IMG/VR virus record: IMGVR_UViG_3300037558_000083 | Span: 1 to 22,204 of that record | From: a virus | Length of the DNA: 22,204 nt | Reading direction: 5' to 3' (one strand) | The notes under the pieces: model-generated | Database searches by the model: none | Told to the model about the DNA's origin: nothing | What the model saw: the letters and a program-made list of their open reading frames with translations, nothing else | Position numbers and translations under genes: made by a program | Shown: piece after piece, positions 618 to 22,204 of the stretch | How positions within the stretch are numbered: position 1 is the stretch's first letter | Layout of the letters: every line of letters starts with the position of its first letter

Positions 618-1742
618 ATGCCTAAACTGCCACGATATGTACAAGAACGAGTGTCACCTACGGGTGACATCTCATACCGTTTCAACCCACCACAGAACCT
701 TGTAGATGAGGGCGTGGTCAAACGTGAGGAATATGGATGTGACTTAAAAGAGGTACGCAAGATCGCACGTGAACATAACAAAGAGATTGATACATATCGT
801 GCAGAACAAGCACAAGTTGTACGAATAAAGTCAAGCAGCAAGGTGACTGATCTGATTAACTATTACTATATGTCTAATGACTTCAATGCCTTACGTGATA
901 CAACTAAAGTAGATTATAGGTACTTTCTCACTGTGTTACACCAGACAATGGGGTGGCGTAAGTATGAGTACGTTACCGCCAAGGTTGCAAAGCAAGCATA
1001 CGAAGAGTGGGTCAAACGTGGCATAAGTTTTGCCAACCATGCGGCAACATGTGCCAGTAGGGTGTACAACTACGCCATTGACATGCAGCACACTACGTAC
1101 AATCCTTGGGCAAATATAAAACGTAAGTCACCAGAACAACGTAAGGTAGTGTGGTCACACGGTGAGGTGAACAAGTTCCTTGACGTTGCATACAGTGACT
1201 TTGAGTACAGGAATGTGGGCTTGATTGTTCACATGGCATACGAGTGGTGTCAACGTCTGGGTGACATGCGTACCTTAACGTGGGACAACGTAGACTTTGA
1301 TAACAGTGTGCTTGAACTAGAGCAAAGCAAACGTAGGGCTGACGTAAGTCTACCCATATCTGACAGCCTACTACACATGCTCAAGGAACAGAAGAATGAC
1401 TTTGGGTTTCAGTGTTACGTAGCACCACACCCACGTCCTGTTGACGGTACATACAATCCATATGCTATGGAAAGATTGTCCAAGGTAGGGCGAAGGGTTA
1501 TGCGACTAGCTAAACTACCCGAAGAGCTACGGCTTATGGACTTACGTAGGACAGGAGTAACACAGATGGACAAGGAAGGTGTACCAATCAATCAGATTAT
1601 GTCGGTGACAGGACACAATCATATCTCTTCTGTTAAGCCTTATCTAAAGCATTCGTATGCAAGTGCAAATAATGCCTTGACACAGAGAAACATAAGTGTA
1701 TCCTTGAGTGGAACGAACAACATAGAAAGTGATATACTATGA
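618..1742 (+). CDS. int: Tyrosine recombinase / phage integrase
   Basis: A 374-aa tyrosine recombinase, expected to catalyse site-specific integration or excision of the phage genome. The N-terminal ~170 residues look like an arm-type/core-binding region; the catalytic domain follows. Visible catalytic positions: Arg213 in QRLGDMRTLTWDNVD (box I), Lys238 in the beta-hairpin SKRRADVSLPI, Arg310 in LMDLRRTGV (box II), His333 in TGHNH, and nucleophile Tyr342 in SSVKPYLK, nine residues after His333. The usual first His of HxLR is Met307. The gene starts 3 nt after the DUF932-like gene and overlaps the primase start by 4 nt (ATGA), so it sits inside the replication operon with no room for an adjacent attP. 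No excisionase or repressor is visible. Family call is secure; whether it is active is inferred. Confidence 0.93.
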   Translation: MPKLPRYVQERVSPTGDISYRFNPPQNLVDEGVVKREEYGCDLKEVRKIAREHNKEIDTYRAEQAQVVRIKSSSKVTDLINYYYMSNDFNALRDTTKVDYRYFLTVLHQTMGWRKYEYVTAKVAKQAYEEWVKRGISFANHAATCASRVYNYAIDMQHTTYNPWANIKRKSPEQRKVVWSHGEVNKFLDVAYSDFEYRNVGLIVHMAYEWCQRLGDMRTLTWDNVDFDNSVLELEQSKRRADVSLPISDSLLHMLKEQKNDFGFQCYVAPHPRPVDGTYNPYAMERLSKVGRRVMRLAKLPEELRLMDLRRTGVTQMDKEGVPINQIMSVTGHNHISSVKPYLKHSYASANNALTQRNISVSLSGTNNIESDIL

Positions 1743-5480: not shown

Positions 5481-7523
5481 ATGATACTAACCCTCGACGT
5501 AGAAAACACAACAACAAAACGTGACGGCAAGCTGCACCTTGATCCGTTTGAACCAACCAACACATTAGTTATGGTGGGTATGCTGGATGATCACATGAAC
5601 GAAACTATTGTAACATTCGATCACGCAGAGCAACAACCCACCACAGATGGGCGGCGTATAGTCCAAGACGCATTGGATGCTGCCCATCTACTTATAGCAC
5701 ACAACGCACCACATGACTTGGTGTGGTTGTGGGAGTCTGGCTTTACCTATGACGGTGACATCTTCGACACCATGCTTGGCGAGTACGTACTGCAACGTGG
5801 ACAGAAAGATGTACTGTCACTTGAGGCTTGTGCTGAACGGTATGACCTTGACACAAAGAAGCAGGACACACTCAAGGCATGGCTCAAGGATGGCAAGTCT
5901 GTACGTGACATGGATCACGCAGAGTTGTCAGAGTATCTGTCTGCTGACTTACACGCAACACAACAGTTGTACTGTAAGTTAGACAAGCAGTATGCTGACA
6001 ATCCTACACTCGTGCCTACCATCAAGCTGACCAATCAACTTTCCTTGCACCTTGCACGTATATACCAACGTGGGTTTCAGGTGGACATGGATGCACTGAT
6101 GGAAGTACGTGACGAGTTTGAGCAAGAACGTAACATGCTTAAAATTGCACTTGAGGAACAGGTTGCTGACATCATGGGCGACAGACCGATCAACCTTAAC
6201 AGTCCAGAGCAATTGTCTTGGGTTATCTACAGCCGTAAGCCCAATGACAAGAAGGTGTGGGCAGATTTGTTTGATGAACGTATGCCTGACTCTGACTATC
6301 GTGGCACAGTCAATACTCATAGTCAACGTCTGTACAAACAAAAGGCACACCAGTGTCCTGATTGCTACGGTACTGGTCAGATCAGAAAAACCAAGAAAGA
6401 TGGTACACCATTCGCCAAGACAAACAAGTGTACTACTTGTGATGCCACTGGCTTTCTGTATCGTGACTCTACTACCATTGCAGGGTTGAAGTTCATTGCA
6501 CCTACATCCAAGTGGGTTAGTAATCACGGGTTCAGTACCAGTAAGGACAACCTCATATTCCTTGAGGGCATTGCCCGTTCCAAGAACATGAAGGAAGCTG
6601 AGTCGTTCCTACGTAATGTACGCAGACTGTCTGCTGTTGACACGTATCTTAGCAGCTTCGTAGAGGGCATTGCTACACACGTAAAGAATGACGGTAAGCT
6701 GCATGTACGTTTGTTACAACACCGCACTGGTACAGGCCGTTTGTCAGGTGCAGACCCCAACATGCAGAACATGCCACGTGGTGGTACATTCCCTGTCAAG
6801 AAAGTATTCATATCACGATGGCATGGCGGTGAGATTATGGAAGCTGACTTTGCACAGTTAGAATTTCGTGTGGCTGCATTCCTATCACAAGACATGACTG
6901 CCATTGACGAGGTGACTACTGGCTTTGACGTACACAGTTACACTGCACAAGTTATCAGTGATGCAGGTCAACCCATGTCACGTCAAGAAGCCAAGGCACA
7001 TACCTTTGCACCTTTGTATGGTGCTAGTGGTTTCGGTAGGTCGCAAGCAGAGGCGGCATATTATCAACAGTTTACGACAAAGTATTCTGGTATTGCCAAG
7101 TGGCACGAGGCACTAGCCAAAGAAGCATTGAACACAGGTAAGATCACTACACCATCTGGACGTGAGTTTGCATTCCCTGACGTTGTACGTAGACGTTATG
7201 GTGGTGTGACATATTTCACACAGATAAAAAATTATCCTGTGCAATCGTTCGCAACTGCTGACATAGTACCTATATCTTTGATATACATTGATAAGTTACT
7301 AACAGCAAACAAACTACGCAGTTGTGTAGTAAACACAGTGCATGATTCAATCGTTATTGACGTGCACCCACAAGAAAAGGAGACAGTACTAAAAGTAATA
7401 CGTACAGCCAACGACAGGCTGATTGACATCGTGAATCGCAAGTGGGACATTGACTTCAACATTCCCCTATTATTAGAGGCAAAGATTGGTCCGAATTGGC
7501 TTGACACAAAAGATGTCGCATGA
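5481..7523 (+). CDS. polA: Family A DNA polymerase with 3'-5' exonuclease and DnaJ-type zinc-finger insert
   Basis: A 680-aa replicative polymerase. The proofreading exonuclease looks intact: ExoI Asp6-x-Glu8 (LTLDVENT), ExoII Asn75...Asp79 (AHNAPHDLVWL) and ExoIII Tyr152-x3-Asp156. Polymerase motifs: RTGTGRLSGADPNMQNMP before the palm, motif A Asp456 (ADFAQLEFR), motif B Arg501/Lys505/Phe509/Tyr513 (RQEAKAHTFAPLYG) and motif C His621-Asp622-Ser623. Phe509 is the position equivalent to E. coli Phe762. Between the exonuclease and palm, residues 292-324 form a zinc-finger-like segment: CPDCYGTG and, 21 residues after its second Cys, CTTCDATG. These are two CxxCxGxG-type DnaJ motifs rather than the four of DnaJ. 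A partial DnaJ central domain in PolA is what I remember for phage HMO-2011. A clear Shine-Dalgarno (AGGAG) precedes the ATG. Confidence 0.96.
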   Translation: MILTLDVENTTTKRDGKLHLDPFEPTNTLVMVGMLDDHMNETIVTFDHAEQQPTTDGRRIVQDALDAAHLLIAHNAPHDLVWLWESGFTYDGDIFDTMLGEYVLQRGQKDVLSLEACAERYDLDTKKQDTLKAWLKDGKSVRDMDHAELSEYLSADLHATQQLYCKLDKQYADNPTLVPTIKLTNQLSLHLARIYQRGFQVDMDALMEVRDEFEQERNMLKIALEEQVADIMGDRPINLNSPEQLSWVIYSRKPNDKKVWADLFDERMPDSDYRGTVNTHSQRLYKQKAHQCPDCYGTGQIRKTKKDGTPFAKTNKCTTCDATGFLYRDSTTIAGLKFIAPTSKWVSNHGFSTSKDNLIFLEGIARSKNMKEAESFLRNVRRLSAVDTYLSSFVEGIATHVKNDGKLHVRLLQHRTGTGRLSGADPNMQNMPRGGTFPVKKVFISRWHGGEIMEADFAQLEFRVAAFLSQDMTAIDEVTTGFDVHSYTAQVISDAGQPMSRQEAKAHTFAPLYGASGFGRSQAEAAYYQQFTTKYSGIAKWHEALAKEALNTGKITTPSGREFAFPDVVRRRYGGVTYFTQIKNYPVQSFATADIVPISLIYIDKLLTANKLRSCVVNTVHDSIVIDVHPQEKETVLKVIRTANDRLIDIVNRKWDIDFNIPLLLEAKIGPNWLDTKDVA

Positions 7524-7560
7524 TATAACTACCATCCGTAAAACAAAAGGAGACTTATAT

Positions 7561-8454
7561 ATGACTCAAGTAACAACAATAGACACTAATAACTACAACG
7601 TAATGGCACAAGCAATGGGCATGAGTGCAGATGCATCACCACAAGCTACCAAGGCAAGTACACTTGCACGTTTGCGTATCAATCACTCGCCTATCATGGG
7701 TGAACAGGATATGAATGGCAAGAAAGTAAAGCTAGAAGTTGTGTCAGGTGGCACATACAAGCTAGAAGTACCTGACGGTGACACATACTACGCAGAGAGT
7801 GTGCGTATACGTCCATTCCTGCAACGGTTCATGCACAAGAAGTTTGTTAAGGGCACAGATCACACCCCTAATCGTTACATCAAAACTGTTATGGTCAATG
7901 ACCTCAATGGTGATATGAAGGACAACGATGGCGGGTTCAACTGTGGTAAACCTGCAGGGTTCATCAAAGATTGGGCAGCATTGCCTGATAGCATGAAGGA
8001 CTTGATCCGTTCTATCAAACGTGTTCGTGCATTGTTTGGTACAGTAGAACTGATCAATGCTACAGATGCAGAGGGTAACTCTGTTGACGTAGAGCCTACA
8101 GCATTCGTGTGGGAGATTGACAACCGTGATGCCTTCAAGATTGTGGGTAAGGTGTTTGCTGATCTTAGTAAGATGCGTAGGTTACCACCACAACACAGTG
8201 TAACACTAACATCTAATGAAGTGCCTTTACCCAACGGTAATAGCTTCTATGTTCCTGTGACGGCATTGGACTTGACCACTACACTAGAGATGGACAATGA
8301 TGCACAAGAAGTGTTTGGTAACTTTGTTGCATGGATTGAGAACTACAATACGTACATTCTCAACTCGTGGAACGAGAACATGCACAAGAACGAAGAGGTG
8401 GATACGGATACAGTAGAAGCCTTTGTGGACATTAGTGAAGAGGACTTCGTATAA
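7561..8454 (+). CDS. Candidate single-stranded DNA-binding protein (unrecognised family), 297 aa
   Basis: I choose ATG 7561, preceded by AAAAGGAG at good spacing, over an upstream in-frame start inside the polymerase. The 297-aa protein has no motif I can name. Residues 50-260 are mixed alpha/beta with repeated beta-type segments and basic/aromatic residues (VRIRPFLQRFMHKKFVKG). The last ~25 residues are strongly acidic and end DISEEDFV, like the acidic, aromatic-tipped tails of T7 gp2.5 and bacterial SSB. It sits between polA and the RecE-like exonuclease, where an SSB or recombination mediator would be expected. The strong RBS suggests high expression. SSB role is inference from tail and context; an annealing protein is the main alternative. 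Confidence 0.7.
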   Translation: MTQVTTIDTNNYNVMAQAMGMSADASPQATKASTLARLRINHSPIMGEQDMNGKKVKLEVVSGGTYKLEVPDGDTYYAESVRIRPFLQRFMHKKFVKGTDHTPNRYIKTVMVNDLNGDMKDNDGGFNCGKPAGFIKDWAALPDSMKDLIRSIKRVRALFGTVELINATDAEGNSVDVEPTAFVWEIDNRDAFKIVGKVFADLSKMRRLPPQHSVTLTSNEVPLPNGNSFYVPVTALDLTTTLEMDNDAQEVFGNFVAWIENYNTYILNSWNENMHKNEEVDTDTVEAFVDISEEDFV

Positions 8455-13897: not shown

Positions 13898-16800
13898 TTA
13901 GTATATATCTGCAAACTCTATTAACTGTAATAGATCAGTTAATTCTGTAGGATCAGGACTTCTACCGTTATTAAACTTTTTGAATTGGACAATAGCAAAC
14001 TTTCTATCATCTCTTGGTATTCTTGAGAGATCATCTACAGCCGTAGCATATGGTGATGCGTAGCCATCTTCAAGAAATTCTTCTTTAGCTGTAGCTAAAG
14101 TGTTCTTTACTATCGAACGAGCTACTTGGTTTATTTCTCTTTTAGTTTCACCCCTAAGTGGTCCTGATGTAGATTGTTCTTTTGCTATCTCCACCACTAA
14201 AGGTAGAACAGTTGATAGGTACTGATTCTCTGCACGTTTTTCTTCTGGCAGCTTTGACCTACTGCCAAGTTCATACGTAGGGTCTTCGTACCCAATACTT
14301 AATAGATACTCTGTTATATCATTATCTGCTTTTTTTATATTTAACCCAAAGAAAAGTTTTTTAAGGGGGTCATATCTTTTAATATCCCCTGTGTCAATAG
14401 CAACTCTGTTTGGCATTTCTTCTTCATATGAGGGGGCAGCAAGACCACGTTGTATTAAAGACCTACTAAAGCCAGAACCAAAAGAAGTAGACCAATCATC
14501 GTTTAAGGTAGGAGAAGTTGCAGCATCTACGTATACATCAGACTTAATACCTGCAGCACGTTGACCTTCTACAACCTGAAACATTGGCGTTAAGAAAGTA
14601 TTTACATACTGACCTACAGCACTACCAATAGCTTTAGCACGTTTGTTCTTGTCAACAATATCTTCTGTACCAACTATTATATCACGTATTTCCTCTATCA
14701 TAACGTTGCCCACACCAGTACGTGCAGATGTTCCTAACCATGTTTCAGCAATATGATCCATGTCAGACCCATACCAAGTGTCTAGTGTTTCTTCTTTATA
14801 ACGTTTACCAAACTCTGCTATCCAACCTACTTGCCGCATAGGGTACGTTCCTGTAAGGTCTACCTGCTGGTCTTCATATTCCATAGACTCGTATCTTTCA
14901 CCAGCAAATTCTGATGTACGATACTGATACATACCGTATATAGCAGCAAAACCCACAAGATTACGGCTTATATCTTGTCTGTCTCTTGCGGTCATAACAC
15001 CACGAGTGTCTTTGAAAATAGCTTTACGAGCAGCCAAAATAAACATACCACCTGCATTTTGAGCCATGTACTCCATAGAGTTAAACATAAATCTTGGAAA
15101 AGGAACAATGACGGTTAGGCCAGATTTAGTAATAATGTCAGATGCCATTTTAAACGGAGCAAAATCGGGTTGCTTTGCATACGTAACATCAAGTGCCTTG
15201 GTGGTAGCTTCATCCAGCATGTTAATAAAGGATCGCCCGTTAGGGCCACGTAAATCTTCAGCATCGTTTATTACATCTTTTATTCTACCTTCATCTAAAG
15301 TTTTACGTAAGTCTATGCCCCATTCTGCTTTAGTTAAACGTTCAATCTCACTAAAGAATGTTGTGTGCCGTAGCATCATTTCTTGCCAACGGTTAGGTGT
15401 GTTTAAAAATGCAGTTCCATCTTCAAGTACAGAAGCCATTTTATCTAAGCCTTGACCAACACGTGTCGTAGCTTGACCTCTACCCGTCAACTCTTGCAGT
15501 TCATGTATACTACTTCCCAGTCTTTCAAAGTGTTGAGATAACTCAGGTCTGTCTAAAATGTACTTTGTATACTGCTCTGCTGTACCTTGATCAGCAAACA
15601 TATATTTCATGTTACGAAATGCACCAGAGTATGTACCGTCACGTACAAAAGGCATAACATTCTTTGTTGCTTCAACTACACCACGAAATTTATCACCCTC
15701 TGTTGCAGCTTTAGAGTACGTAATTAGTGCAGTATCCATAACATTAGCAAGACCTTCCATTGGTGCTCTAATAATACCAGACTGTAAGTTACGTGCAGCC
15801 GTAGCAAGTGAAGACACCATCAAACCCCTACGGATATTTTCTCCACGTAGTACTGTATTAGACCAGAATTTAGATAGACCTTTTTGTGTTGCCCTGTTAG
15901 CTAACTCTGCTTGTCTTTCTTTAATGCCCTTTGGTTTAAACCTAGACATTTGACTTACCCTGTTCAGCAATCTACCTGCTTCAGAGGCTGACCCTACCAC
16001 ACCCAACATGTATTCTTCGTATGACATACCATGTTTATTTAATATGTTATACAAAGTTTCATTTGCTATTAAATCTTCATTTACTGTAAGTTCAAATAGT
16101 TGATCTACTAAAGGTCTTGCACGTTTTTCTTCGCCTTTACGTTTACCCTTAGTGATTTTTACTGTTGGGGTTTTAAGAAGATCAGGAAATGCGTCTTGTA
16201 AATCTGCAACAACACCAACCAAAGCATCCAGTTTTTCTGGATTTAATATTGGTATAGCTAGTACGTCTTCATCGTTTATGGCTAGTTCATCTAACGGGTT
16301 TACAGAAGCATTGCTATTGTTGCCTTGATACACATCATCAATATAGTATTCTTTTAATTTTGTCTTACCACTAGCACGTACTGCAACAGGGTCAATAGCT
16401 AATCTACCATCTTTAGTTTCTTTAGATATTCTTACTTCATTTCTTTCTTCAAATGCAATGATTAAATCATCTTTAATTTCTTTGTGTTCTGCGGCTTTTG
16501 CTTTATTTTGTTTCTTTATTTCCTCGGCTAAATTGCTTTCGTTTAACATGGCATTTTGCACACGGTTATACTCACCACCGTTGCCAACAGCTTTCCATGT
16601 TTTTGTTATACCTTTAGCCAAAACACCTGCTACGGGAATTGCAGCAGCCGCATCTAGTGTAGCCCACCCAACATCTGCTGCGGCAGCACCCAACCTGCCC
16701 TCACGTACATGTTCCTGTACATTTGTCCAGTGTATAGGAAGTTCAGCCAAAGCAGTAGCAGGGTTTAACATTTCATCAGCAAATACAATAGCATTAATTT

Positions 16801-17464
16801 CCCCTGCAGTAATGTTACCCTCTTCAGCAGCAGATAACAACTTAGAGGTAAGCCCACTTGTTACCATGTTTTTATTGTTTAATCGTTCTATTAAAGCATT
16901 TCTACGACTTAATACTTTATCTAAATGAAACTTAGATACTTCTGCAACTCTTTCATCAACAGTCATGCCTATAGAAGAGTTAGGGTTCTTTTCTTTTTTT
17001 CTTTGGATTACTTCTTCAACAGAAATATCATAGGCTTTAGCAATACCCTGAAGAATCTTTTGTTCTTTTCTTACGTCTTCTTCAGCTATACGTCTTTGGG
17101 CTTCAATAAACTCAAGGTCTAAACCTGTGTCAACTCGATTTAAGTCTTCTTCAAAAAGTTTATCTACAATACTTTCTAAATTATTTATAGGTGTTGGGTC
17201 TTGTTCTTCTGTGTCTATAATAACTTCTTCTGTAGATGTATCTACGTTTAAATCAAACTCTTCTTCACTGTCATCAATATCATTAAACAAAAAATCACCG
17301 CCCTCTTGAGAAGGCAGTGTTGGTTCAGTACTTGTATTGTAGGAAGGCTCTTCCTCTTCTTGTATATCTGGAAAAGAAAAGGTTGACTGCTCTTGATCTG
17401 GTATAGTTGGTACAGTTACAACCTCTTCCTCATCAAGATCAGGAAATAAAAAGTTGTTATCCAT
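13898..17464 (-). CDS. Large internal-virion/ejection-type protein, 1188 aa
   Basis: The last gene of the leftward arm. The first ~90 residues are very acidic and hold three copies of an F-x-F-(P/N)-D-(L/I) acidic motif (about residues 4-14, 28-39 and 56-69). Residues 95-200 are helical and charged. An Ala-rich hydrophobic stretch near residues 260-285 (AAAADVGWATLDAAAAIPVA) could associate with membrane. The C-terminal half (for example VPFPRFMFNSMEYMAQN and RYDPLKKLFFGLNIK) reminds me of the large internal virion proteins of T7-like marine phages. I see no lysozyme or transglycosylase motif. The role, ejection of a scaffold or DNA-conducting protein into the host, is inferred from size, position and resemblance. 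It begins directly after the 401-aa gene stop (TAAATG). Confidence 0.75.
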   Translation of the reverse strand: MDNNFLFPDLDEEEVVTVPTIPDQEQSTFSFPDIQEEEEPSYNTSTEPTLPSQEGGDFLFNDIDDSEEEFDLNVDTSTEEVIIDTEEQDPTPINNLESIVDKLFEEDLNRVDTGLDLEFIEAQRRIAEEDVRKEQKILQGIAKAYDISVEEVIQRKKEKNPNSSIGMTVDERVAEVSKFHLDKVLSRRNALIERLNNKNMVTSGLTSKLLSAAEEGNITAGEINAIVFADEMLNPATALAELPIHWTNVQEHVREGRLGAAAADVGWATLDAAAAIPVAGVLAKGITKTWKAVGNGGEYNRVQNAMLNESNLAEEIKKQNKAKAAEHKEIKDDLIIAFEERNEVRISKETKDGRLAIDPVAVRASGKTKLKEYYIDDVYQGNNSNASVNPLDELAINDEDVLAIPILNPEKLDALVGVVADLQDAFPDLLKTPTVKITKGKRKGEEKRARPLVDQLFELTVNEDLIANETLYNILNKHGMSYEEYMLGVVGSASEAGRLLNRVSQMSRFKPKGIKERQAELANRATQKGLSKFWSNTVLRGENIRRGLMVSSLATAARNLQSGIIRAPMEGLANVMDTALITYSKAATEGDKFRGVVEATKNVMPFVRDGTYSGAFRNMKYMFADQGTAEQYTKYILDRPELSQHFERLGSSIHELQELTGRGQATTRVGQGLDKMASVLEDGTAFLNTPNRWQEMMLRHTTFFSEIERLTKAEWGIDLRKTLDEGRIKDVINDAEDLRGPNGRSFINMLDEATTKALDVTYAKQPDFAPFKMASDIITKSGLTVIVPFPRFMFNSMEYMAQNAGGMFILAARKAIFKDTRGVMTARDRQDISRNLVGFAAIYGMYQYRTSEFAGERYESMEYEDQQVDLTGTYPMRQVGWIAEFGKRYKEETLDTWYGSDMDHIAETWLGTSARTGVGNVMIEEIRDIIVGTEDIVDKNKRAKAIGSAVGQYVNTFLTPMFQVVEGQRAAGIKSDVYVDAATSPTLNDDWSTSFGSGFSRSLIQRGLAAPSYEEEMPNRVAIDTGDIKRYDPLKKLFFGLNIKKADNDITEYLLSIGYEDPTYELGSRSKLPEEKRAENQYLSTVLPLVVEIAKEQSTSGPLRGETKREINQVARSIVKNTLATAKEEFLEDGYASPYATAVDDLSRIPRDDRKFAIVQFKKFNNGRSPDPTELTDLLQLIEFADIY
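17258..17455 (-). repeat. Three copies of an acidic F-x-F-P/N-D motif in the N-terminus of the 1188-aa protein
   Basis: Encoded segments NFLFPDLDEEE, STFSFPDIQEEEE and GDFLFNDIDDSEEE share aromatic, Asp and acidic-tail positions. They lie about 24 and 29 residues apart in an otherwise disordered-looking, low-complexity acidic region. This looks like a repeated short docking motif rather than a folded domain. Confidence 0.7.
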
Positions 17465-18670
17465 TTACATTTTACCTGCATCAATAAAGTTATTGTGTTG
17501 GGTATTTATAGGCATACCAGTATACACCTGTATGCGAGTTACAGGCACACCATCTTCCACGGTATTAACTAAAATAATATCACCAATTGAATACATACCA
17601 GCTTGTGCATTTTTCTGTAAAACATTAACCCGTTGACCATTTTCTGTTGCAAACATGTCTATTGGTTGGTCTATGTTTTGTATTCTTTTTGAGTTCATAG
17701 CATCAGTAGGATTTAAAATTCTACTTCTGGCGTTTAACTGTATTTTTTTAATAGAGTTTTTAACGTATGCTGCTGCTTTATTATTTAGTTGTGGACTCAT
17801 AGGCTGACCGTCTTCGCCAGTATTGTCAACACGCATCATATTAGCAGCTTGGATAATTGCCACATTATACTCAGGTACTCTATCACCTACTTTTTCTGCT
17901 AATCTTCCCTCAAGGTCTACACTAAATTGATTTTCTTGTAGAGCATTTTTTATATTGGTAGTTTCAATAGTGGTAAGACTACGTTTACTAAAGGGACTAG
18001 AAGTATCACCTTCACCCTCTGCCTTTAATGTTGCATCTTTTTCTTTTATTTTAGCTAAGTACAAGTCTGCAAGTTTAGAATTTTTATCTCTTATAGCTTG
18101 TGTACTTCCTGTTATAGATTTCTGTACAGCAATAGCATATGCACTATCTAAAGTAGCCTGTTCATCATCTGCAGGAGACATAATTTGTCCATAGTAATCT
18201 AAATTAAATAGACTGCTTTTTCTTTCTACACCCTCTTGAGTTTTTTCTAAATCAGATACACCACTTTCAATAGGTGGTAAATCTGCTGTACTAGATAAAA
18301 CTTCTGAAGCAAAGTCTGAAGATTCTTGCGCACTTAATGCTGCTGCATCGGGTATGTTTATTAACGGACTAGCACTCATGCCTTTAGCTGCAGCATTTTG
18401 ACCAAGTGTCAATGCTTGTCGTGCTGCACCAACGCCACCTTTCATTATAGCTGTTACTTCCTCTGGATTAAAGAAAACACCTAGTGATCCAGTAAGTTCA
18501 TCTACAATTTTTTGTTCTTGTTCACGTTCTGCTTGTTTAGCTAGACGTTGCCTAGTAGCAATAGTACGTGCCTCATCTTGTATCTTTTCTTGACGGATAC
18601 GGTCATCATTTATACGACTAGTAAGAGTACTAGCAAACCCAGCACCAAAGCCTTGTAAATTAAATGCCAT
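17465..18670 (-). CDS. Putative virion-associated protein, 401 aa
   Basis: A 401-aa protein with no named domain. It starts MAFNLQGFGAGFASTL, followed by a long charged helical region (RIRQEKIQDEARTIATRQRL and onward to residue ~60) likely to form a coiled coil. The middle is Ala/Ser-rich, and the C-terminal ~60 residues are beta-rich (GMYSIGDIILVNTVEDGVPV). It lies between the 170-aa gene (start shares one base with its stop, TAATG) and the 1188-aa gene (TAAATG), so the three are probably translated together. Location suggests an internal virion or tail-associated protein comparable in place to T7 gp14/gp15; no sequence motif proves this. Confidence 0.72.
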   Translation of the reverse strand: MAFNLQGFGAGFASTLTSRINDDRIRQEKIQDEARTIATRQRLAKQAEREQEQKIVDELTGSLGVFFNPEEVTAIMKGGVGAARQALTLGQNAAAKGMSASPLINIPDAAALSAQESSDFASEVLSSTADLPPIESGVSDLEKTQEGVERKSSLFNLDYYGQIMSPADDEQATLDSAYAIAVQKSITGSTQAIRDKNSKLADLYLAKIKEKDATLKAEGEGDTSSPFSKRSLTTIETTNIKNALQENQFSVDLEGRLAEKVGDRVPEYNVAIIQAANMMRVDNTGEDGQPMSPQLNNKAAAYVKNSIKKIQLNARSRILNPTDAMNSKRIQNIDQPIDMFATENGQRVNVLQKNAQAGMYSIGDIILVNTVEDGVPVTRIQVYTGMPINTQHNNFIDAGKM

Positions 18671-19182
18671 TACACTCTCCTTGCCATAAGCCCACTAGGT
18701 GCAGGTTCTACTGGTGTATCTTCCATTACCTCTGGCTCTTCTTCACGTTCTTCTATAGCTTCTGGTAGTTTTTCACGCATCTTCTTCATGGCTAGTGCAA
18801 TCTTAACATCACTAATCTTGTCATCGTCAATACGTTTATCTGTACCCATAGTATAATCTATTCCTGCATCTTCCGCAATATATGCAAGCATTTCAATAAT
18901 CACAGGCATAGCCAACATACCAACATCAATTGTGTGTAAACCCTGCATAACACCGCCTGTCTGTAGGGTATCAGCCATAGTAGTAAGAGGTACACCAAGT
19001 TCCATAGTGTCTACTATACCCTCATACATCTCATCAGATACAAGTCTAGGTATGTACCACTCAAGTGCTTCTTCTACAGAGGCATACTGTGGTGGGTTCT
19101 GCCAAGGTCTGCTACCTAGTTCAGCAGTCATACCTTGTCCAGCTATAGGATAGTCCATAGTAGGAGTAAGTGTTTCAACCAT
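18670..19182 (-). CDS. Conserved-type phage structural-module protein, 170 aa
   Basis: A 170-aa protein starting MVETLTPTMDYPIAGQGMTAELG. A central hydrophobic helix-rich part (TIDVGMLAMPVIIEMLAYIAEDAG, residues ~84-108) is followed by a charged, Glu-rich C-terminus that ends in a short basic tail. The 'AELGSRPWQ' and 'HTIDVGMLAMPVI' strings remind me of small proteins that recur in marine podophage structural modules, without a known function. It overlaps the 67-aa gene by 8 nt upstream and shares one base with the 401-aa gene downstream. Confidence 0.72.
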   Translation of the reverse strand: MVETLTPTMDYPIAGQGMTAELGSRPWQNPPQYASVEEALEWYIPRLVSDEMYEGIVDTMELGVPLTTMADTLQTGGVMQGLHTIDVGMLAMPVIIEMLAYIAEDAGIDYTMGTDKRIDDDKISDVKIALAMKKMREKLPEAIEEREEEPEVMEDTPVEPAPSGLMARRV

Positions 19183-19378
19183 TTGTTATTTGCTTTCTTG
19201 CTTTACGTAATGAAGTAACATAACTACGAACACGATCAATAGGTTCATTTTTAGTGTCATTAGATTTACTGTTTCCATTACGAGATAGTAAACCAAAGCT
19301 CTTTGTTTGTTCTACAGGAGCTTCATCTTCTTTGATGCCTAAATTTGTGTATGCCATATATGCTGGATTAACGTCCAT
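19175..19378 (-). CDS. Small hypothetical protein, 67 aa, virion module
   Basis: A 67-aa polar, basic protein (starts MDVNPAYMAYTNLG; the C-terminus is Lys/Arg-rich, VRSYVTSLRKARKQ). AAGGACACACA precedes the ATG on the minus strand. It overlaps the 170-aa gene by 8 nt. Probably a small component of the virion or assembly module by position only. Confidence 0.62.
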   Translation of the reverse strand: MDVNPAYMAYTNLGIKEDEAPVEQTKSFGLLSRNGNSKSNDTKNEPIDRVRSYVTSLRKARKQITNG

Positions 19379-19393
19379 TGTGTGTGTCCTTAT

Positions 19394-21460
19394 TTAAAAT
19401 AAATATTCAAGACCTTTACCGAGTAAGGTGTCACCACCTATCTTTGAAGTAAACATCGTAGCTACGAGACTGCCCCAAGCACTAGAAGATTGTTGATCTG
19501 CAAGCAATGAAGAAGCCTCAACAGATGCATCAACTTCCATTTTCTTCATTGTAATCTCTTGCAGTCTTTGCCGTTCATTTTCCGTACTGTTCCAAGCATA
19601 CTCCATGCTATCTTGATAATATGCCCACAGATCATTGTATGCATTGTTAGAGATACCTAATAGATTAGTTGCATTAATTTCATTAGCACGATTAATAGCT
19701 GCAGTATCTGCTGTTGCTACTTGTTTACGCCATTGTGCATTCTGTTGATCAATCACTAATCTGTTTTGTGCATTGAACTGATCACGTTGGTTCATCATTT
19801 CTGCAGCAAACTTCTCCATTACGTTAGCTTCACCTGCATTAAACTGTGCCATAGCATTAGACTGTGAAGTATTAAACTGTGATGTCTGTGTTTGTAGATT
19901 AGCAAAGAACTGATCAGTTTGGTTTTGACTAGTTGCATTAAACTGACGTGCGGCATTCTCAGCAGCTTGATCAGTAAACAAAGACTGTATGCTTTGTTGT
20001 GCCTTAAACATTTCTGTTTGCTGTTGATTGTTTAGATTAGCCATATCTGTCTGTAGGAAAGTCTGTGCATTCATTACAGCAGATTGCTGCCTGTTGTTAA
20101 GGTTAGCCATGTCCATGTTAGCTAGGGCTGCAGCCTCAGACATTACAAGTGCCTGTCTGTTACCCAAGTTGGCTAGGTTCATAGTGTTTGCTGTACGGCT
20201 GTTCTCTAATGCAATCTGTTGTTCTGCAGTAAAGTTCATGTTTGCAATGTCACTAATCTTACTTGCATTCATTACACGTGCTTGGAATGCTTGATCAAAC
20301 TCTTGACCAATAAACTTAGCACGTTGTTCTGCTGCAAGCATAGCACGTTGCTGACGGTTTGACAAGTTCTGTGCTTCAAAAGATGCTATAACACTTGCAT
20401 CAGCTTGTGCAATGGGTAGTGCAGATTCCATAGCTGCCTGTACAAGAGCTTGTCCTGCTAAACTACTAGCACCTAAACCACGTGAAGCCATAGTAGCAGA
20501 CACATTACGCATAGCACCAGCAGCCCATGCAGGTGTAGCACCATCTTCAAACTGTTGCATTAATGTATCAAGTTGACCTTGAACTGTAGCCTGTTTGTTT
20601 AATGTGGCTTGCGCAGCTTGAACTTCTTCAGTAAACTTAGCAGCAGTGGCTGCATTAGAAGAAGGGCTAACTAATTCACCTTGCTCTACTTTACGTTGCA
20701 CAGGGTTATCCATAAGAATAGCAGAACCTTGTGCAGCTTCAAGATCACTTACACTAGTTGATGTAGCTATCTGTGCATCTACTATAGAACGTGGATCAAC
20801 AGTACCTTGTGCTGCCTGTGTTTGAGCTACAACGGCTGCTACATCATCTTTAGCTTGAACAGCATCCATAGTAGTAGCAGGAGTTGTGGTTGGTGCATCA
20901 GCCTGTGCAGTACCTGCTTGTAATGTACCTGTTTCAATATCTCCTAAAACTTGACCACTAGTTGATGGGATTAACTGATCAGATGTTATCTGTGTTCCAA
21001 CTGGTTGTACTGTTGTACCATAGGCTAGTGAAGGATCAATAGCACGTTGTGCTTGTAACTCTGTGATAGATTCACCTTGATACACAGGTTGTTGTGGTGG
21101 TCCTGAAATCAGTTCAGGTGTAAAGCCGCCGGGTCCAAAGCCTCCTAAATTGTCGTAAGGTTGTTGTGGTGGTAACACAGGATCAGGTGTAACTATCCCA
21201 CCCTCTTGATATTTACCCGCAAGTTCTGAGTTTATTTTTTGTTGTACATTTTCTGGTAGTTTAGAAAAACCTTTATACTTACTAGGTACACTACCACCTT
21301 TAACCATCTGCATAGCCTTATCTTGATACATATTCATTTGCTGCATCTTATCAGGGTTTTGTTCTAAGAATGCATTAAAGCCACTCATGTTACCTTGATA
21401 GCCCATACTACCTGCAATACGTTGCATAGCTTGTGGTTTAAATCCTTTGAATTGTATCAT
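19394..21460 (-). CDS. Gln/Ala/Asn-rich virion protein with long hendecad-repeat helix, 688 aa
   Basis: Three regions are visible. Residues 1-90 form a conserved-looking N-terminal domain (FKGFKPQAMQRIAGSMGYQG) that I associate with marine phage structural proteins. Residues ~90-360 are Pro/Gly/Gln/Ala/Thr-rich and low complexity. Residues ~363-582 form an uninterrupted 11-residue repeat: starts at 363, 374, 385 and so on, most obvious as QFN at 506, 517, 528, 539, 561 and (QQN) 572. The C-terminus is amphipathic (SLVATMFTSKIGGDTLLGK). An 11-residue repeat predicts a straight or right-handed helical rod or a lipid-binding amphipathic helix. Likely an internal virion/ejection or tail protein; the role is inferred. 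The start shares a base with the 153-aa gene stop. Confidence 0.75.
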   Translation of the reverse strand: MIQFKGFKPQAMQRIAGSMGYQGNMSGFNAFLEQNPDKMQQMNMYQDKAMQMVKGGSVPSKYKGFSKLPENVQQKINSELAGKYQEGGIVTPDPVLPPQQPYDNLGGFGPGGFTPELISGPPQQPVYQGESITELQAQRAIDPSLAYGTTVQPVGTQITSDQLIPSTSGQVLGDIETGTLQAGTAQADAPTTTPATTMDAVQAKDDVAAVVAQTQAAQGTVDPRSIVDAQIATSTSVSDLEAAQGSAILMDNPVQRKVEQGELVSPSSNAATAAKFTEEVQAAQATLNKQATVQGQLDTLMQQFEDGATPAWAAGAMRNVSATMASRGLGASSLAGQALVQAAMESALPIAQADASVIASFEAQNLSNRQQRAMLAAEQRAKFIGQEFDQAFQARVMNASKISDIANMNFTAEQQIALENSRTANTMNLANLGNRQALVMSEAAALANMDMANLNNRQQSAVMNAQTFLQTDMANLNNQQQTEMFKAQQSIQSLFTDQAAENAARQFNATSQNQTDQFFANLQTQTSQFNTSQSNAMAQFNAGEANVMEKFAAEMMNQRDQFNAQNRLVIDQQNAQWRKQVATADTAAINRANEINATNLLGISNNAYNDLWAYYQDSMEYAWNSTENERQRLQEITMKKMEVDASVEASSLLADQQSSSAWGSLVATMFTSKIGGDTLLGKGLEYLF
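19715..20374 (-). repeat. Hendecad (11-residue) protein repeat, about 20 units in register
   Basis: Codons for residues 363-582 of the 688-aa protein divide into 20 consecutive 11-residue (33-nt) units without insertion or deletion by my reading. Early units recur in pairs (LANLGNRQALV, MANLNNRQQSA, MANLNNQQQTE every 22 residues); later ones start QFN (19715-19945). Conservation is at protein level; the DNA copies have drifted. Confidence 0.85.
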
Positions 21461-21921
21461 TATCTAGTCCCTAAATATACAAAGCCAACCAAACATCCAG
21501 TGCAAATAATAAATACAGCTATACCTGCTGACCATTCTATTATTGACTGTTTAATTTCTATTTGTCTGTGCTCGTGTTCTTTCTTTTGTTTTCTTAACTT
21601 GGCTTCTATCTCAAGTATCTCTTGCCACTTAGATGGGCCATACATAACCGATATGTAATCTTTTAATTCCTTACGCATGGACTCAGCTTTTTCTTTAGCT
21701 TGCCATATCTCCATTGCCTGTGCTTCAACGCCACTACCTAGAGCCTTATACCAAGGTGGCTTTTGAGATTGTCTGTCTGCAAAGTCTAGGTCTGCTACTG
21801 CACCTGCCCACTGAGAGAGTTGACCACCCATGTCCTGCAAGTCTCTGCCTACTTGTATACCTTTTTTAATTGCATTGAAGGCTGCAGTAGCACCAGCTAT
21901 AGCTGTTACTGGATCAATCAT
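21460..21921 (-). CDS. Small helical protein with C-terminal TM segment, 153 aa
   Basis: The N-terminal 35 residues (MIDPVTAIAGATAAFNAIKKG) are Ala-rich and amphipathic. The middle holds a charged coiled-coil region (KLRKQKKEHEHRQIEIKQ), followed by one hydrophobic helix near residues 131-149 (AGIAVFIICTGCLVGFVYLG). Proteins with this start and layout recur beside large virion proteins in marine podophages as I remember them; function unknown, with a holin, spanin-like or virion membrane role all possible. A GGGGGGAT sequence precedes the ATG. Its stop overlaps the 688-aa start by one base. Confidence 0.72.
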   Translation of the reverse strand: MIDPVTAIAGATAAFNAIKKGIQVGRDLQDMGGQLSQWAGAVADLDFADRQSQKPPWYKALGSGVEAQAMEIWQAKEKAESMRKELKDYISVMYGPSKWQEILEIEAKLRKQKKEHEHRQIEIKQSIIEWSAGIAVFIICTGCLVGFVYLGTR

Positions 21922-21942
21922 AGTATCCCCCCAACGATTGTA

Positions 21943-22204
21943 TTAGTTTTCAGTGTCCCTGTTTGCCATCTTTTCCACTGAGTCACGTATGGCTTTTATG
22001 TTTTCATCCATTCGTCCAAGGGTTACGGCTTGACTTTGTACTACTTTTTCCAAAGCCTCTATTCTAGTTTCGTGCCGTATAAGTTCACGTTGATTGTTTT
22101 CTATGTTGTTGTCTAGACTTGATACGTACCAGACTAGTGCTACAGTCTGACCGACAATAGCTAGTATAAAAGAGATAGGTACAGATTTACTTAGATGCCA
22201 GCTA
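21943..22204 (-). CDS. Membrane-anchored coiled-coil protein, partial (5' end beyond window)
   Basis: The minus-strand frame is open from the right edge to a TAA at 21943-21945. It gives ~87 residues, with a hydrophobic helix (VPISFILAIVGQTVALVWYV) then a polar helical coiled-coil part (ENNQRELIRHETRIEALEKV...) ending NRDTEN. No start is visible, so the gene continues beyond 22204. The N-terminal TM plus coiled coil suits a holin, spanin or another lysis-related membrane protein, but no family is certain. It ends 21 nt before the 153-aa gene starts. Confidence 0.68.
   Translation of the reverse strand, partial: SWHLSKSVPISFILAIVGQTVALVWYVSSLDNNIENNQRELIRHETRIEALEKVVQSQAVTLGRMDENIKAIRDSVEKMANRDTEN

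Follow-up and report, generated by a model that had tools for sequence, protein, structure and literature searches.

A DnaJ-type zinc-finger motif pair with a conserved basic loop in the thumb of an HMO-2011-type phage DNA polymerase

The polymerase gene and its surroundings

The window analyzed here is the whole stretch of 22,204 nucleotides, a linear virus DNA of 22 kb that is probably a fragment of a larger genome. It encodes a family A DNA polymerase of 680 aa (5481..7523, + strand) with a 3'-5' exonuclease, a thumb carrying a putative zinc-finger insert, a palm and fingers. The polymerase matches both PF00476 (motifs A, B and C) and the PF01612 exonuclease above the Pfam cut-off. In an alignment of 68 relatives, the exonuclease residues D6, E8, D79, Y152 and D156 and the polymerase-domain residues D456, E461, R501, K505, F509, H621 and D622 are all invariant. 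The AlphaFold2 model of the polymerase has a mean pLDDT of 90, and the fold matches of the whole model are the Bst and Klenow polymerases. F509 (window 7005-7007), which is Phe throughout the 68 aligned sequences, is the equivalent of Klenow position 762 and agrees with the published Phe762 class of HMO-2011-like PolA.

Among named polymerases, the closest come from Roseobacter phages CRP-345 (79% identical) and CRP-1 (76%), with that of Puniceispirillum phage HMO-2011 at 66%. The polymerases of HMO-2011, CRP-1, CRP-345, CRP-3 and HTVC033P have the same domain order and the same finger site at 79-36% full-length identity. The present polymerase shows no essential difference from these and is one more member of the type, closest to CRP-345 and CRP-1, as it shares with them both the two-motif partial DnaJ domain and similarity over the full length. 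Phages of the HMO-2011 type belong to the dominant groups of ocean phages. The top 12 phage records are all of this type; identity then falls to about 27%, and the finger is absent from those of the lower-scoring polymerases that were examined. No finger-bearing polymerase outside the HMO-2011 group was found in the phage records, where the only non-group matches were two marginal ones (E 0.1 and 0.8).

The genes neighboring the polymerase encode an integrase, a primase, a DnaB helicase, ThyX, a ribonucleotide reductase and MazG, a set that fits the HMO-2011-type group. The core genes of the group found in the 22-kb fragment are primase, helicase and polymerase, and no capsid, portal or terminase gene was identified in it. 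The integrase, of the tyrosine type, lies upstream of the replication genes (window 618-1742, +) and suggests a temperate HMO-2011-type member, comparable to subgroups I-III of the published scheme. On the minus strand, an ORF of 1188 residues (window 13898-17464) has no Pfam or PHROGs match, and the block 13898-22203 to which it belongs may hold structural or ejection genes. The ORF directly 3' of the polymerase (window 7486-8454, +) has no family match; its mechanical TTG start overlaps the polymerase gene, and the true start is likely the ATG at 7561, which has AAAGGAG upstream. An unnamed gene is also found 3' of the polymerase in HMO-2011 and CRP-345. No RNA families or tRNAs were detected in the 22,204-nt window.

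Position and motifs of the thumb insert

The most conserved stretch of the thumb is the segment INLNSPEQLSWVIYSR of the thumb-tip helix H1 (residues 237-252; 6189..6236, +), which aligns with Klenow NLSSTKQLQTILF. It directly precedes an insert of residues 253-348 (6237..6524, +), in which two short helices accompany the finger and its flanking pair of strands. The thumb then resumes with HGFSTSKDNL (residues 349-360; 6525..6560, +), the equivalent of Klenow GGAPSTSEEVL. In an alignment with the Klenow fragment and T7 DNA polymerase, the insert thus splits INLNSPEQLSWVIYSR from GFSTSKDNL, which correspond to Klenow NLSSTKQLQTILFEK and GGAPSTSEEVLEEL. We take these two Klenow segments to form the tip of the thumb. 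When about residues 590-613 at the tip of the Klenow thumb are deleted, DNA affinity and processivity reportedly fall.

The preliminary description had placed the insert between exonuclease and palm. This needs correction, as both the alignment and the AlphaFold2 model place it within the thumb subdomain; judged from the aligned sequences, it lies between the equivalents of Klenow NLSSTKQLQTILF and GAPSTSEEVL. Over the insert, the AlphaFold2 pLDDT is 82-94 per ten-residue block, and in the model strands 285-291 and 325-333 flank the finger.

The thioredoxin-binding domain of T7 DNA polymerase is also a large thumb-tip insert of a phage family A polymerase. However, it lacks a zinc motif and has no visible sequence similarity to the finger insert. 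The two also differ in position, as the T7 domain sits before helix H1, at a site read from the motif FNPSSRDHI because MAFFT aligned that part poorly, whereas the HMO-type insert sits after H1. The present insert therefore does not lie between thumb helices H and H1 as in the T7 type, and the two thumb-tip inserts are found on opposite sides of H1.

The finger itself consists of motif 1, CPDCYGTG (C292 and C295; 6354..6377, +), and motif 2, CTTCDATG (C317 and C320; 6429..6452, +). The polymerase has seven cysteines, the other three being at positions 117, 165 and 615. Motif 2 is a degenerate CXXCXGXG, i.e., CXXCXAXG, and the same change is seen in 62 of 272 sequences. When the same 680 residues were shuffled 100,000 times, CxxCxGxG arose in 0.035% of the shuffles and a pair of CxxC separated by 10-40 residues in 0.008%. 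The full pattern never arose (0 of 100,000), which together with its conservation led us to reject a chance origin. The Pfam model DnaJ_CXXCXGXG matches residues 286-328 with E = 9e-5 and 23.1 bits, a score under the curated cut-off of 32.7, and it was found separately in 68/68 members of the insert alignment (E <= 0.1, best 2.6e-8). With its two motifs, the finger corresponds to the single-zinc form of the CXXCXGXG (CR-type) domain. C292, C295, C317 and C320 would be enough for one zinc, which is predicted here.

Conservation of the finger and its relatives

Both Cys pairs are present in 272 of 277 strong matches, which were gathered from viral and genome collections by searches in which one of the six patterns for the CRP-3 query falls in the finger. 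The remaining five are contig fragments that start within or after the region, and all four cysteines are found in 272/272 of the relatives that cover it. Random loss of the cysteines among homologues, which the preliminary description had named as evidence against its reading, was also checked, and no case occurred (0 of the 272 covering the region). The DnaJ-type motif pair, sufficient for one zinc and set in a polymerase in which the motifs of both catalytic domains are intact, is borne out as first described: the translation, the invariant residues, the four cysteines of the relatives and the Pfam matches all agree with it, and 6354-6452 coincides with the finger.

The spacing between the Cys pairs is 25 in 271/272 sequences. 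It is 37 in CRP-738, the sole relative whose hairpin between the pairs is longer, with a 12-residue Lys/Arg-rich extension. Cys and Gly are the only absolutely invariant residues within the finger, while the XX residues inside each Cys pair vary freely, like those of zinc knuckles. This pattern bears on whether the cysteines serve as a thiol redox switch or a weak oxidoreductase, as DnaJ has been reported to do. A weak thiol-reductase activity is described for DnaJ in the available text of PMC4428491. However, freely varying XX residues and strict glycines suit zinc knuckles, nothing here indicates redox control, and we regard such a role as very improbable.

The occurrence of the finger in this group has been described before. 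HMO-2011-type polymerases are reported to be atypical in that a partial DnaJ central domain, containing two CXXCXGXG motifs, separates their exonuclease and polymerase domains; in the available text of these reports the trait is given for every isolate as well as for 207 metagenomic genomes and served as a criterion of membership (PMC6918029, PMC9038755, PMC8528129). The claim that the finger marks HMO-2011-type phages thus matches a published group hallmark as well as the nearest relatives found here, and the observation is not new. For this trait an earlier HMO-2011 genome paper is cited, presumably Kang et al. 2013 as the original description. DnaJ and zinc are nowhere mentioned in PMC9069017 and PMC6302109. 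No experiments on the finger were found in the available text of the literature searched, HMO-2011-type descriptions included. What is added here to the published trait is, from sequence comparison, the placement at the thumb tip and the conserved charge of the loop. The finger is a hallmark domain for which we found no tested role, and its placement and loop charge make that role directly testable.

Compared with solved structures, the insert profile matches best the E. coli DnaJ zinc domain 1exk (E 0.0036, motifs 2 and 3), followed by the phage antitermination protein Q (E 0.03-0.18). The Q-like PHROG families phrog_6060 and phrog_127 match 66/68 and 63/68 inserts, respectively (E <= 0.1). 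For the model of the isolated insert, the best PDB fold match is the DnaJA2 zinc finger (probability 0.96, weak at E 0.34) and the next is UvrA bound to DNA (probability 0.82, likewise weak at E >0.3). The preliminary description had also named widely separated cysteines in a predicted structure as evidence against its reading, and these matches to zinc fingers gave no sign of that. The finger and DnaJ (Hsp40, PF00684) have CXXCXGXG motifs in common, and the finger covers profile positions 12-55, the zinc II half. However, DnaJ has four motifs and two zinc sites while the polymerase finger has two motifs, and can therefore hold at most one such zinc site. Nor does it have the J domain or the peptide-binding domain of DnaJ, and its loop is basic; no J domain (PF00226) was found in the polymerase or elsewhere in the 22-kb record. 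The polymerase accordingly has neither the J domain nor the four motifs and two zinc sites of a DnaJ/Hsp40 co-chaperone.

Phage Q (PDB 4mo1, 7ubj) likewise forms one finger from two CXXCXGXG-like motifs, but its finger belongs to a transcription factor with a helix-turn-helix and has no polymerase context. This finger is thought to share in DNA recognition (PMC9371919). Since the single fingers of Q and UvrA match as well, "DnaJ" names a fold here and not a chaperone role. Docking of a host chaperone, one of the roles first considered, gains no specific support, as there is no J domain and the comparable matches are non-chaperone fingers such as that of phage Q. Many stand-alone phage mini-fingers also match the fold with a probability near 1 at E >0.001. 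One example is the 48-aa K7QL67 of phAPEC8, whose predicted fold aligns with the finger at 1.8 A across 46 columns (probability 1.00, but E = 0.05). These mini-fingers are separate small proteins and not polymerase parts, and they are possible donors of the finger.

Possible roles of the finger

Between the Cys pairs lies the basic turn KTKKDG (residues 303-308; 6387..6404, +), which follows a K-x-K-K-D/N-G pattern in the relatives. Among 271 sequences, position 303 is K/R in 270 and H in one, position 305 is K/R in all 271, position 306 is K in 266, position 307 is D or N, and G308 is invariant. The net charge of the loop between the pairs is +3 to +8 in 271/271 sequences, while the equivalent loop of E. 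coli DnaJ has +1. The conserved basic loop makes contact with primer or template the best-backed of the roles first considered, and a loop that is always positive on the thumb tip implies that the finger probably grips DNA and does not serve as a chaperone.

The zinc might instead be a structural staple only, which holds a long loop of the thumb in its fold and takes no part in contacts. A single zinc commonly stabilizes small inserts, and the absolute invariance of Cys and Gly alone in the finger fits such a staple. However, a staple would not need the three K/R positions and the D/N-G turn to be kept down to about 37% whole-protein identity, and we consider this explanation unlikely.

We give roughly an even chance to the reading that the protein, as the replicative PolA of a marine phage of the HMO-2011 type, uses a single-zinc finger at its thumb tip to grip DNA for processivity. 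One zinc bound by the four cysteines would brace a beta-hairpin, and the lysines of the hairpin would point at the sugar-phosphate backbone of the nascent duplex, which the thumb tip also faces in other family A polymerases. Such lysine contacts could prolong residence on the DNA and thereby provide built-in processivity for a genome of roughly 55 kb. In favor of this reading, insertions in the thumb serve processivity in T7 DNAP and Pol gamma, and those of plant organellar polymerases, which are lysine-rich, have been modelled beside duplex DNA (PMC7699545).

Several points count against a DNA grip. The fold matches of the insert are weak by E-value, the basic loop could touch an acidic protein partner, and by analogy with T7, whose thumb insert acts through a protein partner, the finger might do the same. 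In the main rival reading, a partner protein docks on the finger, in the manner of the T7 thioredoxin-binding domain; candidates are the phage helicase or primase, an SSB, a host chaperone and a thioredoxin-like protein. The thumb insertions of T7 DNAP and Pol gamma raise processivity by binding partner proteins that act as processivity factors, and the T7 domain also binds the SSB tail (PMC7699545). In the present case the insert adjoins the T7 insertion point, primase and helicase genes are nearby, and lambda Q, with the same finger type, has several protein partners. However, the N-terminal flank of the finger is variable (mean identity 0.50 in residues 253-285), and the surface that stays constant is lysine-rich and not hydrophobic. 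The 22-kb fragment yielded no thioredoxin or J-domain gene, although such a partner may come from the host or from the rest of the phage genome. In addition, phages that infect Roseobacter, SAR116 and SAR11 all retain the finger, which makes a partner specific to one host less likely. Taken together, docking is possible but the less likely of the two.

The grip on DNA can be extended to a more tentative proposal, that the zinc-braced basic hairpin is a self-contained processivity device which spares a thioredoxin-like clamp and sits on the side of H1 opposite to that used by T7.

Thumb inserts after H1 are also found at the same point in the PolA of Autographiviridae and in the split polymerases of Zobellviridae-like phages, often as a short basic SGK.xGExK hairpin without zinc cysteine pairs. 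The inserts of these two groups match each other with an hhalign probability of 97.7%. By eye, SGK.xGExK resembles KKDGTPFAK of the finger. The profile comparison nevertheless gives no support to descent of the finger from this zinc-free hairpin, as the hhalign probability to the HMO insert is <6%. Finally, PolA is split into two ORFs in Methylophilales phage MEP401, Vibrio phage ICP2 and Alcaligenes phage QDWS535; the break separates the thumb from palm motif A, and in MEP401 the gap holds an extra small ORF.
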